Assembly (NCBI RefSeq): GCF_016598615.1
Contig: NZ_CP066831.1
Coordinates: forward strand, 7,688,001-7,752,000
Length of the DNA: 64,000 nucleotides
Source of the DNA: Streptomyces liliifuscus
GTDB lineage: Bacteria > Actinomycetota > Actinomycetes > Streptomycetales > Streptomycetaceae
Direction of reading: 5' to 3'
The stretch's first letter is position 1; every line of letters starts with the position of its first letter. A model generated the notes under the pieces. That model made no database searches and had not been told where the DNA came from. It saw only the letters and a program-made list of their open reading frames with translations. This document shows positions 31,032 through 36,307 of this stretch, piece after piece. The position numbers and the translations under genes were made by a program.

Positions 31032-32972
31032 TCAGTGGTGGTATGACGTCACATAGCCGGGGGCCGGTGAACCCACCCCGGTGACGTCGTCGTAGCCGCG
31101 CACTGCCTTCAGCGAGCTGTCCTTGCCCAGGCTGCGGACGGAGGTCAGCAGGCCCTCCGACGCGTCGAACGAGTTGACGAAGTCGACGCGCGCCACCGCG
31201 AGGTCTCGGCCCGTCGGGCGGTCCGTGACGTCGTGGTAGAGCTTCGAGCCGTACCGGTCGTAGATCGCCGGGTTGGCGAAACCGATCGGGTGGCCGCCGC
31301 GCTGCTGCTGGGCGAGCGCCTGGATGCCCGCGATGACCGGCGAGGCGAGCGAGGTGCCGCCGATGCGGTACTCGTCGTACTTCTGCGTTCCGTCCGGGAA
31401 GGTCTGCGTCTGGCCGACCAGGAACCCGGTGTTGGGGTCGGCGATCGCGGAGATGTCCGGCACCGTTCGCATCGCCTGGTTGCCGTGAGCCTTCGAGAGG
31501 GTGGATGGGACCACGCCTCGCTGGTAGAACGGCTGCTTCACCGTTGCGCTGGTGCCGCCGCCCGCGCCGGAGGTGTACGCGCCGGGGAAGTCCGTCCAGC
31601 TCTTGCCGTCGTCCGACAGTGTGGCCCTGAACGTGCCCCAGCCGGTCTCCCACTTGTACGTGTCGCCCTTGCCGACGGCCAGCGAGGTGCCGCCGACCGC
31701 CGTCACCCACGCCGAGTTGGCCGGGGTGTCGACCTGCTTCGTACCGGTGTGCGCGACCTCGTCGCCGTTGTCGCCGGACGAGAAGTAGAAGCCGATGCCC
31801 TCGATCGCGCCCAGCTGGAAGACCTGGTCGTAGGCGGCCGCGAGGTCCGGCGTCTGGTTGGCCTCGATGTCGCCCCACGAGTTGGAGACGATGTCGGCCA
31901 GATGCCCGTCGACGATCTTGCCCAGGGAGTCGAGCAGATCGTCGTCGTAGCAGGACTCGGCGCCCACATAGATGATGTCGGATGCCGGCGCTACGGCGTG
32001 CACGGCCTCGACGTCCAGGGTCTCCTCGCCGTACCAGCCCGCCGCGCCGCACTCCTCGGTCCGCGTGTACTGGGTCGGCAGCACCTGGCTCAACTGCCCG
32101 CCGCCGTACGCCGCGTCGCCGTGCTTCGCCGCGTACGTGGCCGCGTCCGCCGCGATGGTCGGCGAGGCGTACGCGTCCGTGATCGCCACGGTCACGCCCT
32201 TGCCGGTCGCCCGGCCCGCCCCGTAGGCCGCCCGCAACTGCTTGCCCGTGTAGCCCTTCACGGCGTACGGGATCTTCGTGCCGTACGCCTTCGGGAGCGT
32301 CGTCGCGGTCTTCGAGCCGTAGTACGAGGAGAACGGCCCGGCGTTGTGGAACACGGCGTCCGGCGGCGGCAGCGTGTCGGAGTGGTTCGCCTTGTGCGGG
32401 GCGTTGTCCAGGCCGGTGACCGTGAGGACCGCGCCGTTCAGGCCCGCGGGCGCCGAGGCGGTCTTGGCGGGTGCCCGGTATGTCTTCTTGCCCTTGGCGT
32501 AGTTGTGCAGCTGGGTGCCGAACGCCTTCTCCGCGTCGGCCACTTCACCCGTCACCGAGAGGTAGTGCCGGGTGGTGTCCGTGACGGTCAGTCCCGCCGA
32601 CTTCAACCAGGCGGTCACCTCGGCCACTTGGGCCTTGGTCGCGCCGAAGCGGGCCTCGGCCTGCCGCGCGCTCAGGTACTTCCCGTACGAGGGCGACGAC
32701 GGGTCGGATACGGCCTTGGCGTAGGCGCTCAGGCCCGCCGCGTCCCGGCCGGCGAGGTAGACCCGGGCCGAGACCCGGGAGGCGTCCGCCGTGGCTCCCT
32801 TGTCCGCCTGGGCGGTGGCCCACAGCGGTTTGGTGCCCTGGAGCGTGTCACGGCCGTCCGGGTCGGTCGACGCATGGGCGGCGGGTATGCCGAGTGCCAG
32901 CGCGCCGGCGAGCAGAGGCAGTGTCGCCGCCATGCTCACACCGGCACGCACCGCGGCTCGGTTGGATCTCAT
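31032..32972 (-). CDS. Secreted S53 (sedolisin) peptidase precursor
   Basis: Sedolisins are serine-carboxyl peptidases active at acid pH. This 646-residue precursor has a signal peptide (1-34, ending AHA). A pro-kumamolisin activation domain spans about 45-195 (VYLAGRDAAGLSAYAKAVSDPSSPSYGKYLSARQ). The catalytic domain contains EETLDVEAVHAVAP (Glu and Asp near 316-320), SSGDNGDE (oxyanion Asp near 403) and the Ser motif GGTSLASP near 542. A Ca-binding tail follows. It is likely exported by Sec and self-activated. GGGGG precedes the ATG. It is transcribed alone. Confidence 0.93.
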   Translation of the reverse strand: MRSNRAAVRAGVSMAATLPLLAGALALGIPAAHASTDPDGRDTLQGTKPLWATAQADKGATADASRVSARVYLAGRDAAGLSAYAKAVSDPSSPSYGKYLSARQAEARFGATKAQVAEVTAWLKSAGLTVTDTTRHYLSVTGEVADAEKAFGTQLHNYAKGKKTYRAPAKTASAPAGLNGAVLTVTGLDNAPHKANHSDTLPPPDAVFHNAGPFSSYYGSKTATTLPKAYGTKIPYAVKGYTGKQLRAAYGAGRATGKGVTVAITDAYASPTIAADAATYAAKHGDAAYGGGQLSQVLPTQYTRTEECGAAGWYGEETLDVEAVHAVAPASDIIYVGAESCYDDDLLDSLGKIVDGHLADIVSNSWGDIEANQTPDLAAAYDQVFQLGAIEGIGFYFSSGDNGDEVAHTGTKQVDTPANSAWVTAVGGTSLAVGKGDTYKWETGWGTFRATLSDDGKSWTDFPGAYTSGAGGGTSATVKQPFYQRGVVPSTLSKAHGNQAMRTVPDISAIADPNTGFLVGQTQTFPDGTQKYDEYRIGGTSLASPVIAGIQALAQQQRGGHPIGFANPAIYDRYGSKLYHDVTDRPTGRDLAVARVDFVNSFDASEGLLTSVRSLGKDSSLKAVRGYDDVTGVGSPAPGYVTSYHH

Positions 32973-33202
32973 GGAGAACCCCCTAATGGATCTCTGGATG
33001 GGGGTCACTCTTGCGATGAACCGTTCATGCCAGGGGAATGGCGGGGACATGGCTGGGCCAAGAAGCGCCCAAGGAACCGTATGTGCAAAGGATTTGGGGC
33101 GCGATGCCCGACATAAAGCGGGTCGCGCCCCCGGTGCCCCTGGAGCCACGGGTGCGGCTTGCGGGGAATTGCCCCGCTCGGCCCGGCGGCTTCGCGCCGG
33201 GG

Positions 33203-33835
33203 TCAGGCGAGCGGCTTCGCGCCGCGCTTCTTCAGCAGGTCGGTGATGAGTCGCATCTCCGACTCCTGGGCCTGGACCATTCCCTGCGCGAGCCGTCGCT
33301 CGACGCCGACCTTGCACCGCTCCACACAGCCCTTGGCCATGTGCACCCCGCCCATGTGGTGGGCGTACATGAGTTGCAGATAGCGGATCTCGGCGGCCTT
33401 GCCGTCGAGCTTGCCCAGCGACTCCATCTGGGCGGTCGTCGCCATGCCCGGCATCAGCGAGCCGTCCCCGGCGGACGGCATGCCGCTCATGTCCATCCAT
33501 GACATGGGTTCGTCGGCCGACACCTTGGGCAGCTCCCACAGGTCCAGCCAGCCGAGCATCATGCCGCGCTGGTTGGCCTGCGTCTGCGCGATGTCGTACG
33601 CGAGACGGCGTACCTCTTCGTCCTTGGTGCGGTCGCGGACGATGTACGACATCTCGACGGCCTGCTGGTGGTGCACCGCCATGTCACGCGCGAAGCCGGC
33701 GTCCGCGGAGTCGGCCGCCGGGGCCTTCATGCCGGAGTCGTCGCCGTCGGCGACCGCGTACGTGATCGCCCCGGCCGCCACGACGACGGCCGCGGCGACC
33801 CCGGAGATCCAGCCGGCGAACTTCATCTTCCTCAC
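33203..33835 (-). CDS. DUF305 Met/His-rich exported protein
   Basis: The 210-residue protein starts with a GTG that overlaps the stop of the DUF3105 gene (GTGA), so translation is probably coupled. A signal anchor (MKFAGWISGVAAAVVVAAGAITYAV) is followed by a helical DUF305 domain with two family motifs, MAVHHQQAVEM and YAHHMGGVHMAKG. Between them lies a Met-rich loop (MSWMDMSGMPSAGDGSLMPGM). The His and Met pattern suggests copper or another soft metal outside the membrane; this is inference. Two Cys follow the second motif. Confidence 0.88.
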   Translation of the reverse strand: MRKMKFAGWISGVAAAVVVAAGAITYAVADGDDSGMKAPAADSADAGFARDMAVHHQQAVEMSYIVRDRTKDEEVRRLAYDIAQTQANQRGMMLGWLDLWELPKVSADEPMSWMDMSGMPSAGDGSLMPGMATTAQMESLGKLDGKAAEIRYLQLMYAHHMGGVHMAKGCVERCKVGVERRLAQGMVQAQESEMRLITDLLKKRGAKPLA

Positions 33836-34500
33836 TGCGACAGGCCGTTGGTGCAGGCGGCGCCCGGCTCGGGCGTCTGCTTGCCCTGGACGTACGTCTC
33901 GAAGAACTTGGCGGCGGCCGGGTCGCTCGCACTCGTCACCGTACGCTGGTGGCCCCACGCGGAGAGCATGATCGGGTCCTTCTGGTCCTCGACCGGGCTC
34001 ATCAGCGTGTACGGGGTCTTCTTGACCTTCTCCGAGAGCGCCTTCACGTCCGCGTCCGACGCCTTGCTGTTGTACGTCACCCAGACCGCGCCGTGCTCAA
34101 GCGAGTGCACGGCGTTCACGTTCTTGATCGCCTTGGTGTAGACGTCGCCGTTGCAGTTCATCCACACCTGGTTGTGGTCACCGCCGACCGGGGGCTCCAT
34201 CGGGTACTTCACGTCCTTGGTGACGTGGTTCTGCGTGAGCTTGGTGCTCCACGTCTTCACCCCGTCCTTGCCCGTGACGAACTTCCCCGACGTCGACTTC
34301 GAGTCGCCCGACGCGCTGTCCTTGTCGTCGGACTGCGAGTTGATCAGGTACGCGCCGCCGGCGACGAGACCGGCGACGACGATCACGCTCGCGGTGATCG
34401 TGAGGATCCGGCTGCGGCGCTCACGTGCCTGCTCGGCACGCCGCATCTCCTCTATCCGCGCCTTGCGCGACTTGGACTCTGTCTTCTTGGCGGAACCCAT
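33832..34500 (-). CDS. DUF3105 membrane-anchored extracytoplasmic protein
   Basis: This 222-residue protein has a long charged cytoplasmic N-terminus (MGSAKKTESKSRKARIEEMRRAEQARERRSR). One helix follows (ILTITASVIVVAGLVAGGAYLI), then an extracytoplasmic DUF3105 domain with PPVGGDHNQVWMNCNGDVY and HSLEHGAVWVTY. The paired Cys and His residues could bind metal. It heads an operon with the DUF305 gene, a pairing that recurs in actinobacteria. It is divergent from nsrR. Confidence 0.87.
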   Translation of the reverse strand: MGSAKKTESKSRKARIEEMRRAEQARERRSRILTITASVIVVAGLVAGGAYLINSQSDDKDSASGDSKSTSGKFVTGKDGVKTWSTKLTQNHVTKDVKYPMEPPVGGDHNQVWMNCNGDVYTKAIKNVNAVHSLEHGAVWVTYNSKASDADVKALSEKVKKTPYTLMSPVEDQKDPIMLSAWGHQRTVTSASDPAAAKFFETYVQGKQTPEPGAACTNGLSQ

Positions 34501-34655
34501 GGGGTGGTCCTTCTGGGGAAAAGGGACAGTCGAGTGGTCCGCTGATCGTAGTGGGGGAGAAGTGGATGTATGCGGGGAGGCCGCAGGAATGGCCAAATGC
34601 CCGGGGCTCCCGGCGATAATTTGAACCTGGTATGCGCATTATCTACGCTGCCGGT

Positions 34656-35090
34656 ATGCGGCTGCTGCGATCCACCGACCTGGCTCTGCGCGTCCTGATG
34701 CGGCTCGCCGTCGCCGACGGCGCGACGCCCACGACCCGCGAGGTCGCGGACGGCATGGAGGTGCCGTACACGCACGCCGCGAAGGTGGTCGCCGAGCTGC
34801 AGCACCTCGGCCTCCTCGACGCCCGCCGGGGCCGGGGCGGCGGCCTCACGCTCACCGAGAAGGGGCGTACGGCCTCGGTCGGCGCGGTCGTACGGACCTT
34901 CGAGGGCGAGGGCGACGTCGTCGACTGCGAGGGCTCCACCCCCTGCCCGCTGAACTCCGGATGCCGCCTGCGCGGCGCCCTGCGCCGGGCCCAGGAGGCC
35001 TTCTACGCCTCCCTCGACCCGCTGACCGTCACGGACATGGTCGCCTCGCCGACCGGGCCGCTGCTGCTGGACATCTCCCGCGCTCACTGA
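34656..35090 (+). CDS. nsrR: Nitric oxide-sensing Rrf2-family regulator NsrR
   Basis: NsrR represses nitric oxide detoxification genes through a [4Fe-4S] cluster that reacts with NO. From the ATG at 34656 the 144-residue protein has Asp8 and three Cys at 91, 97 and 103 (spaced Cx5Cx5C). This is the ligand set known for Streptomyces coelicolor NsrR (Asp8 and three Cys). The winged helix is at 10-65. An ATG at 34632 would add eight residues and shift these ligands. A TGGTAT half-site near the start may allow autoregulation, but its partner half is poor. It converges on hmp with a 7-bp overlap. Confidence 0.93.
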   Translation: MRLLRSTDLALRVLMRLAVADGATPTTREVADGMEVPYTHAAKVVAELQHLGLLDARRGRGGGLTLTEKGRTASVGAVVRTFEGEGDVVDCEGSTPCPLNSGCRLRGALRRAQEAFYASLDPLTVTDMVASPTGPLLLDISRAH

Positions 35091-36307
35091 CCCTGTGTGC
35101 TCTGCGCGAGCCACAGGTCGGGCCCGAACACCTCGTAGTGGATGTCGGCGGGCGCGACCCCCTTCTCGATCAGTCGGCCGCGTACCGCCCGCATGAAGGG
35201 CAGCGGACCGCACAGGTACGCGCGCGTGCCCGACGGGACCACCACTCCGGAGAGGTCGGCCAGACCCGTGCGGTCGGCCGGGTGGCCGGGCTCCGGGTGC
35301 TCGTACCAGAAGTGGGCCGACGCGTCCGGCAGCTTCGCGGTGTACGCCTCGTGCTCGGCGCGCAGGGCGTGCTCGGCGGGGGACCGGTCGGCGTGCACGA
35401 CGGTCACCTGGCCGCGGTGCCCGGTGACCGCGAGCTGCTCCAGCATGGCGATCACCGGGGTCACACCGATTCCGGCGGAGGCGAGGAGCACGGGCGTGTC
35501 CGCGTCGCCGTCGTCGTGGTGCAGGACGAGATCGCCGTACGGAGCCGACAGTTCGACCGTGCTGCCGGCGTGCACGCGCGCGTGGAGGTGGTTCGAGACC
35601 TCGCCGTCGGGCGTCGTACCGCCGTGGATCCGCTTCACCCCGATCCGGCGTACGGACGAGCCGGGGACCCCGACCAGGCTGTACTGCCGTATCTGACGGG
35701 CCCCGTCGGGCAGCTCCACGCGTACGGAGACGTACTGGCCGGGCCGGAAGTCCGGCGCGGGGGAGCCGTCGGCCGGACGCAGCAGGAAGGTGGCGACGTC
35801 CGCGGTCTCCTCGACGCGCTCGGCCACCTCCCACGTGCGCCAGCCGCCGCCTCCGCCGGTGGCCGCGCTCTCCTCGTACAGCCGCTTCTCGATGGCGATG
35901 AGCGCGTTCGCCATCAGCCAGTAGACGTCGGTCCAGGCGGCCGCAACCTCGGGGGTGACCGCCTCGCCCAGCACGTCGGCGATGGCGGCGAAGAGGTGCT
36001 CGTGGACGACGGGGTACTGCTCGGGGGCGATGCCCAGGGAGACGTGCTTGTGCGCGATGCGGCTCAGCATCGTGTCGGGCCGCTCGTCCGGCCGCTCGAC
36101 GAGCTGCGCGGCGAAGGCGGCGAAGGCGCCCGCCAGGGCCTGGCGCTGGGTGCCGGAGGCCTGGTTGCCGCGGTTGAAGAGGTCGCGCAGCAGCTCCGGG
36201 TGGGCCGCGAACAGTCCTTCGTAGAAGCGGTCGCTGATCTCTCCCAGGGCCGCGCCGACGGCGGGGAGGGTGGCGCGGACTGTGGCGGCGGACTGCTCGG
36301 ACAGCAT
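35084..36307 (-). CDS. hmp: Flavohemoprotein (nitric oxide dioxygenase) Hmp
   Basis: Hmp turns NO into nitrate using O2 and NAD(P)H. The 407 residues comprise a globin domain (1-138, proximal His near 85 in AHKHVSLGI), a FAD domain (RQYSLVG near 205) and a NAD domain (LLASAGIGVTPVIAMLEQL, later GPLPFMRAVRG). Length fits the family. The start at 36307 was chosen as the globin start; the open frame upstream crosses the operator. An 11-1-11 inverted repeat 38-61 bp before the ATG is the probable NsrR site. Confidence 0.95.
   Translation of the reverse strand: MLSEQSAATVRATLPAVGAALGEISDRFYEGLFAAHPELLRDLFNRGNQASGTQRQALAGAFAAFAAQLVERPDERPDTMLSRIAHKHVSLGIAPEQYPVVHEHLFAAIADVLGEAVTPEVAAAWTDVYWLMANALIAIEKRLYEESAATGGGGGWRTWEVAERVEETADVATFLLRPADGSPAPDFRPGQYVSVRVELPDGARQIRQYSLVGVPGSSVRRIGVKRIHGGTTPDGEVSNHLHARVHAGSTVELSAPYGDLVLHHDDGDADTPVLLASAGIGVTPVIAMLEQLAVTGHRGQVTVVHADRSPAEHALRAEHEAYTAKLPDASAHFWYEHPEPGHPADRTGLADLSGVVVPSGTRAYLCGPLPFMRAVRGRLIEKGVAPADIHYEVFGPDLWLAQSTQGQ

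Follow-up and report, generated by a model that had tools for sequence, protein, structure and literature searches.

The window, i.e., the whole stretch of 64,000 nucleotides that was analysed, lies on the larger of the two contigs of an 11.35 Mb genome and contains two overlapping genes on its minus strand. The first gene of the unit, at 33832-34500, encodes a 222-residue DUF3105 protein (PF11303, E-value 1.8e-48, 164.3 bits against a cut-off of 25), whose nearest named relative comes from Streptomyces phaeochromogenes (98%). The second gene, at 33203-33835, encodes a DUF305 (CopM-type) protein of 210 residues when read from GTG (PF03713, E-value 4.9e-43, 147.2 bits against a cut-off of 27). 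The stop codon of the former and the start codon of the latter share the four nucleotides GTGA at 33832-33835 of the minus strand, and the GTG is likely the true start because a 4-nt overlap was called in 57 of the 77 named Streptomyces pairs. Both proteins pass the curated Pfam cut-offs. The families, coordinates and overlap given in the original prediction are right, and the translational coupling that it proposed is supported by the gene overlap, which recurs as a conserved two-gene unit. The surrounding genes lie outside this unit. A divergent plus-strand gene at 34632-35090, which we take to encode an Rrf2/NsrR-like regulator, and a minus-strand gene at 35084-36307, presumably encoding a flavohaemoglobin of the Hmp type, have relatives in 34 and 29 of 80 Streptomyces loci, respectively. 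A gene for a secreted peptidase-like protein, which we assume to be of the S53/sedolisin type, follows the pair at 31032-32939 and has homologues in 45 of these loci.

Upstream of the unit, the Streptomyces copies have in common an 18-base element, CAYTACGATCAGCGGACC / TACGATCAGCGGACC, which in the window occupies positions 34536-34553 of the minus strand, 36-53 bases upstream of the DUF3105 start codon. The block TACGATCA within this element is kept at a level of at least 90% in 80 upstream sequences, one from the window and the others from 79 of the 80 named Streptomyces loci, and in the same sequences GAAGGA, part of the probable DUF3105 ribosome-binding site AGAAGGA (34508-34514, minus strand), is kept at a level of at least 80%. 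The element is likely the -10 region or transcription start of the unit, and its conservation supports a single transcript that begins before DUF3105. Scans of positions 33000-34900 for consensus promoters and terminators gave no match. Genome-wide, the site in the window is the single exact copy of the element: there are no other matches with 0-1 mismatch, four with two mismatches, and at up to three mismatches 32 places match, against 12 for a reversed control pattern. A regulon defined by the element was not adopted given the lack of further matches at 0-1 mismatch, and a wider set of sites is possible.

DUF3105 was found in 120 and DUF305 in 84 of 296 Actinomycetota genomes. Among the matches listed in these genomes, 44 of the 52 DUF3105 domains scoring above 140 bits lie directly upstream of a DUF305 domain on the same strand, at a distance of 132-640 nt between the two domains, and none of the 41 lower-scoring ones is paired (0 of 33 at 100-140 bits and 0 of 8 below that). 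The 93 DUF3105 places compared are those listed at 100 bits or higher and eight picked from a larger number of weaker ones, and at least 150 listed DUF305 places were set against them, so weak partners of low-scoring DUF3105 proteins could escape this count. The genes overlap by 4 nt in 19 and by 1 nt in 5 of the 44 fetched pairs (24 of 44 together), as called by a custom script, which for the Streptomyces loci used fixed codon scores. The fetched loci hold 65 DUF3105 genes, none of them fused to DUF305, and the gene next to the 21 unpaired ones is never DUF305. Of the 80 named Streptomyces loci, 77 are paired as well. The pairwise distances among DUF3105 domains follow those among their DUF305 partners (r = 0.906 over 44 pairs, the best of 2000 permutations reaching 0.27), a value which is not corrected for the species tree and which shared species history is expected to raise. 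In a tree of 64 DUF3105 domains, from which one distant sequence (L091|3) was omitted, pairing is clustered (10 label changes against a shuffled mean of 17.3, with 0 of 500 shuffles as low), and the paired domains fall into more than one clade. Since pairing clusters in the tree without forming a single clade, it fits one old association followed by losses, although several origins are also possible. Six matches to DUF305 and four to DUF3105 were found in the genome containing the window; they include three adjacent pairs, namely the one described here and two located on the second contig of 320 kb.

The DUF305 domain of the window protein (33236-33703, minus strand) carries the M52xxHH motif, a second histidine pair (H159-H160) and conserved methionines. 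M52, H55, H56, M111, M128, H159, H160 and M166 are invariant in all 43 partners that were aligned out of 44 (an over-long call, L090, was omitted), and M62, M114, M131 and M156 are kept in 40-42 of them. Both HH motifs that had been noticed are, accordingly, present and invariant. The cluster of six methionines within about 21 residues is literally there as well, in a loop of residues 111-131 (33443-33505, minus strand) with M111, M114, M116, M119, M128 and M131, but M116 and M119 are kept in just 12 and 9 of the 43 partners, and we reject the cluster as a statistical oddity: it was equalled in 3018 of 20,000 shuffles of the protein's own letters, readily reached because the protein is rich in methionine throughout. 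The closest relative of known structure is a putative secreted protein of S. coelicolor (PDB 2qf9, E-value 3e-88 over residues 41-208), which is known as a structure only; a more distant one is CopM of Synechocystis (5fej, E-value 4.4e-09). CopM, of which 5fej is one of several structures, resembles the window protein in having a DUF305 domain, an HH motif and many methionines and probably in being exported, and it differs in having two DUF305 domains and in being encoded by the copMRS copper resistance operon; it is reported to bind copper and to contribute to the copper resistance of Synechocystis (PMC4335983). The MxxHH sequence is given as the CopM motif in a CopM metallophore study (PMC11836926). 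Against the NCBIfam CopM model (NF049983), the window protein scores 71.3 bits, under the cut-off of 90.

A hydrophobic N-terminal segment is present in the DUF305 proteins of 41 of the 44 pairs and in the DUF3105 proteins of 43. The original prediction had both proteins anchored with their domains outside the membrane. These N-termini agree with export of both, but for the DUF305 protein anchoring is less than certain: no lipobox-like motif occurs in any of the 44, and in all 76 Streptomyces partners an AxA-type site, as recognized by a loose pattern, trails the hydrophobic run, so the protein may just as well be cleaved and secreted. In the DUF3105 protein of the window, a K/R-rich N-terminus precedes the hydrophobic segment at approximately residues 32-50, and the domain behind it is inferred to be extracytoplasmic.

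The DUF3105 domain itself spans residues 92-217 (33850-34227, minus strand) and includes H92, H109, C116, H132, E135, H136, W182 and C216; in all, the protein, for which the original prediction had noted Cys/His motifs, has five histidines and two cysteines. The domain contains an HSLEH (HxxEH) sequence at residues 132-136 (34093-34107, minus strand). Among the 63 sequences aligned out of 65 found, G107, H109, H132, H136, G137, W182 and C216 are invariant, and H92 and E135 are present in at least 90%; the two sequences omitted are a fusion that has the motif (L094) and L091|3, which does not have it. The fusion (L094:1045-2859) is a protein of 604 residues in which a C-terminal DUF3105 domain follows an HEFGH-bearing part that presumably is a membrane zinc metalloprotease. 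In one strongly supported clade (L093 and L097-L101), HSMDHG or HSLDHG replaces HSLEHG; several of its members have lipoprotein-like starts, and none of the six adjoins DUF305. C116 and C216 are the sole cysteines of the window protein, which has no CxxC. No other Pfam family was detected in it at an E-value of 0.1, the PDB contains no sequence relative (a profile search returned two rows, with E-values of 0.33 and 8.7), and a search against phages gave no match.

AlphaFold2 predicted the DUF3105 domain with mean pLDDT values of 94-98 per block (97.1 when the domain was modelled by itself), and the model suggests a thioredoxin-like arrangement, albeit as a weak match. The predicted order of strands and helices in residues 117-206 is that of thioredoxins, and each of the 50 matches that VIA-align lists is a thioredoxin, has a thioredoxin-like domain or was designed on that fold. 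The best of them for the whole protein is 1faa (Z 6.8, 3.1 Å over 99 residues, about 10% identity), the domain alone reaching Z 6.6, and a Z below 8 may reflect a merely common arrangement. Foldseek returned nothing with an E-value below 0.03, its lists including unrelated proteins too, and no fold outside the thioredoxin group was prominent in the structure searches. Compared with thioredoxin fold proteins, DUF3105 has a similar predicted order of secondary structure elements but is devoid of CxxC.

Genes for metal handling are found near the pairs far more often than expected by chance. Within 10 kb, a CDF metal exporter accompanies 18 of the 44 pairs, in 6 families, against 0.80 expected, and CopD accompanies 5, one in each of 5 families, against 0.23 expected; the control family Chorismate_bind was found near none of the 44, against 0.57 expected. 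The expected values come from whole-genome counts (all 131 CDF rows; CopD less three rows below the family cut-off; Chorismate_bind less one fragment), and P values based on them overstate the case because 24 loci belong to one family, f18, and are not independent, with 13 of the 18 CDF cases coming from it. Multicopper oxidase was discarded as a general neighbour, being within 10 kb of 1 of the 44 pairs of this phylum sample against 0.45 expected (75 rows counted, 17 second domains omitted). Clustering of the neighbouring proteins gave, among its most frequent clusters, CDF at 16 loci, ArsR/SmtB at 11, an HtrA-type protease, P1B ATPases and an unnamed small protein at 10 each, a response regulator at 9, a histidine kinase at 8, a DUF1232 protein at 7 and CopC/CopD-type proteins and CcdA at 5 each, where the regulator, kinase and CcdA names are our assumption from sequence. 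The largest family, f18 (24 of the 44 pairs), has mostly CDF, ArsR/SmtB and P1B ATPase neighbours: it accounts for 12 of the 16 CDF loci and for all loci with ArsR, P1B ATPase, HtrA, the small protein and DUF1232. Four of the five CopC/CopD loci and all five CcdA loci lie outside it.

Around the core copy of Streptomyces the picture is different. In the 80 loci, glnA is nearby in 73, and single-sequence searches of flanks of up to 6 kb found none of the CDF, CopC/CopD, CcdA, TlpA and P-type ATPase queries, so that no metal gene was found near the copy in the window or near most of the core copies in Streptomyces. The same searches detected multicopper oxidase in 4 and DUF6153 in 4 of the 80 loci. 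In a few Streptomyces the two lie downstream of the pair (L121:7332-9449, L143:9487-10172, L122:9914-12288 and L063:8681-10754); in L143 just an 85-residue end of the oxidase was called, which suggests decay. The 320 kb second contig of the source genome carries many metal genes, with three matches to DUF305, two to DUF3105, three to CopD and five, of which three are weak, to the CDF family. One of its two pairs adjoins a CopC-CopD-type protein, which exceeds the PF05425 cut-off and falls short of those set for CopC and CopD in NCBIfam, and other neighbours of that pair have relatives annotated as CcdA and peroxiredoxin in an island of S. mirabilis.

This island is carried by plasmid pI of S. 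mirabilis P16B-1 and equals an island of the source genome (L011) in the order of gene lengths and types. A tblastn search found DUF3105 on 83 plasmid records, of which 12 regions were read; among them are regions from Deinococcota, to which the pair thus also extends. In 10 of the 12, DUF305 comes after DUF3105 in the same orientation, although in a Kineococcus plasmid a small gene is annotated between them on the opposite strand. The order is reversed in the Arthrobacter FB24 plasmid, and in Pseudarthrobacter pMK-1 the two genes are four genes apart. Annotated metal-resistance or copper-trafficking genes are present in 9 of the 12 regions: CopC in five, including S. mirabilis pI and Rhodococcus pseudokoreensis, a multicopper oxidase and a P-type ATPase in pMK-1, SCO (next to the pair) and cation efflux in D. 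grandis, a heavy-metal P-type ATPase and ArsR in Arthrobacter FB24, and ArsR/SmtB and CDF in one further region. Clear metal-resistance genes are absent from the other three regions, one of which has mntH. Genes for the maturation of lipoproteins (signal peptidase II, lgt or lnt) are repeatedly found near the pairs on plasmids from Arthrobacter, Kineococcus, Deinococcus, Rhodococcus and Pseudarthrobacter (L187, L188, L189, L190, L192 and L195). A study of the copper proteome of Kineococcus reports a copper-responsive, plasmid-encoded DSBA oxidoreductase (PMC2928746); that this is the product of the thioredoxin gene near the Kineococcus pair is a lead only.

Because the pair is recurrent and often located inside copper or heavy-metal resistance clusters, it is probably a two-protein device that deals with toxic metal extracellularly. 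The neighbourhoods, on which the original prediction could not draw, turn what was a guess about metal into the leading explanation. The two-protein metal handling of the original prediction is supported in part, by a conserved unit whose products both carry export signals and by metal genes around it far above chance, and its "perhaps copper" keeps its "perhaps". More specifically, we think it fairly probable that the two proteins make up one extracytoplasmic module for the binding and hand-off of metal, most likely copper, with binding, metal identity and interaction all inferred. The DUF305 protein, being of the CopM kind, would use its HH pairs and conserved methionines to bind a soft metal, Cu(I)/Cu(II) being the likeliest, on the external side of the membrane, and the membrane-anchored DUF3105 protein would be its dedicated partner, presumably in physical contact with it. 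DUF3105 would hold or receive the metal on the outer face of the membrane at a histidine site composed of H109, H132 and H136, and perhaps of H92, E135 or cysteine, and would either keep it off the cell or hand it over to machinery of the envelope, CopC/CopD-like or other; transfer from DUF305 to DUF3105 is the presumed direction. Translational coupling would keep the levels of the two proteins matched. The chromosomal core copy of Streptomyces may serve housekeeping metal tolerance, with the extra copies travelling in plasmid metal-resistance islands. A bolder version, which we offer tentatively and consider doubtful, is that DUF3105 is an extracytoplasmic metal protein of a new type, CxxC-less and thioredoxin-like with a metal site centred on HxxEH, which serves a CopM-like donor as its obligate acceptor or redox partner in a mobile two-protein relay for copper in actinobacteria and deinococci.

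Copper comes first among the candidate metals, given that the DUF305 relative which has been studied binds it and that CopC/CopD neighbours recur in unrelated families. Against this, the f18 neighbourhoods point to Zn/Cd/Co. The same module could therefore act on zinc and cadmium, or on soft metals broadly, with the divalent metal exported by neighbouring CDF and P1B ATPases; this alternative, which we regard as unlikely, draws on the neighbours of the f18 pairs (CDF, ArsR and Cd-class ATPases). In its favour are the CDF genes near 18 of the 44 pairs, the ArsR/SmtB and P1B ATPase loci (11 and 10 of 44) and, in the vicinity of the pair of Rhodococcus pseudokoreensis, a cadmium resistance transporter. 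The two P1B ATPases that were scanned are nearer to the Zn/Cd class, passing the Cd-class model with 495.7 and 503.5 bits (cut-off 313.5) and the Cu model, at a cut-off of 397, either barely (397.1) or not at all (389.5). However, all the ArsR and ATPase cases come from the single family f18, whereas CopD neighbours are spread over five families and CopC is present on 5 of the 12 plasmids read, and the copper binding of CopM also speaks for copper. Methionine-rich sites favour Cu(I)/Ag(I), which we count against zinc and cadmium as well. Copper specificity is in turn weakened because multicopper oxidase is not enriched and loss of pI barely altered copper tolerance. In a study of pI, S. mirabilis cured of this pair-carrying plasmid had an almost unchanged copper tolerance, and transfer of pI to S. 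lividans increased tolerance to nickel, copper and cobalt; the copYZ genes tested there may or may not lie in the island of the pair (PMC9195940).

It is also conceivable, though again improbable, that the module delivers copper rather than detoxifies it, loading respiratory oxidases or exported cuproenzymes together with SCO-, CtaG/CopD- and TlpA-like helpers. The SCO gene adjoining the D. grandis pair would be in line with this, as would genes for subunits of cytochrome oxidase in the neighbourhoods of the pairs of pBD2, Kocuria and D. gobiensis, a protein next to one pair that combines CopD and Caa3_CtaG domains, and the CcdA or TlpA-type neighbours on plasmids. The efflux and metalloregulator genes in many neighbourhoods argue for detoxification instead, several copies per genome in some organisms and carriage on plasmids fit resistance better, and the Streptomyces pair lies near glnA in most loci. 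Still less likely is that DUF3105 is an enzyme acting on envelope substrates through an HxxEH metal site, with DUF305 serving as a metal supply only. HxxEH is a motif of M16 inverted-zincin peptidases and LuxS, and in HSLEH the histidines are invariant and the glutamate nearly so, but Pfam gave DUF3105 only at an E-value of 0.1, sequence searches of the PDB matched neither a peptidase nor LuxS, one clade has Asp in place of the Glu, and the predicted fold weakly resembles thioredoxin. A part for the window copy in a nitric-oxide response of the adjacent NsrR-like and Hmp genes, which would build on the divergent intergenic region common to the pair and the Rrf2 gene at 34632, is very improbable given that these genes accompany the Streptomyces loci far less regularly than the pair occurs there and that, in the 44 loci of the phylum, Rrf2 is found in 5 and Hmp in 4, all of them Streptomyces.

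The metal-handling module remains our preferred reading, and the system was originally called undescribed. As applied to the whole, this is too strong because CopM is a known copper binder and the 2qf9 structure has been solved; as applied to DUF3105, it stands to the extent that a search of 5.39 million PMC papers found none under that name. What is new is the conserved DUF3105-DUF305 partnership and its spread, within a DUF305 family that already has a known copper binder. Other DUF305 proteins have been reported. MXAN_3416 is encoded by the copper-induced curA operon of Myxococcus together with a multicopper oxidase and CopA (PMC3707914); it is a DUF305 protein like that of the window, unlike it a lipoprotein, and the nine listed genes of its operon do not include DUF3105. 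A DUF305-containing plant elicitor, from a study in which 2QF9, with S. coelicolor as its organism, served as a modelling template (PMC5900052), and a DUF305 gene that is a sigma-factor target in the regulation of sulfite detoxification (PMC6527743) do not speak for metal. The actinobacterial plasmid clusters with CopC/CopD, CcdA and peroxiredoxin, such as that of S. mirabilis pI, contain the DUF3105-DUF305 pair, and neither "DUF" nor "copC" occurs in the main text of the pI paper (PMC9195940).

In our view, little is known of the way in which Gram-positive soil bacteria buffer copper and other metals on the outer side of their membrane. DUF3105, for which neither a paper nor a PDB sequence relative was found, gains a testable role, and the copper-binding DUF305 family gains what may be a dedicated partner in actinobacteria, in a module that is carried on the plasmids of several genera.
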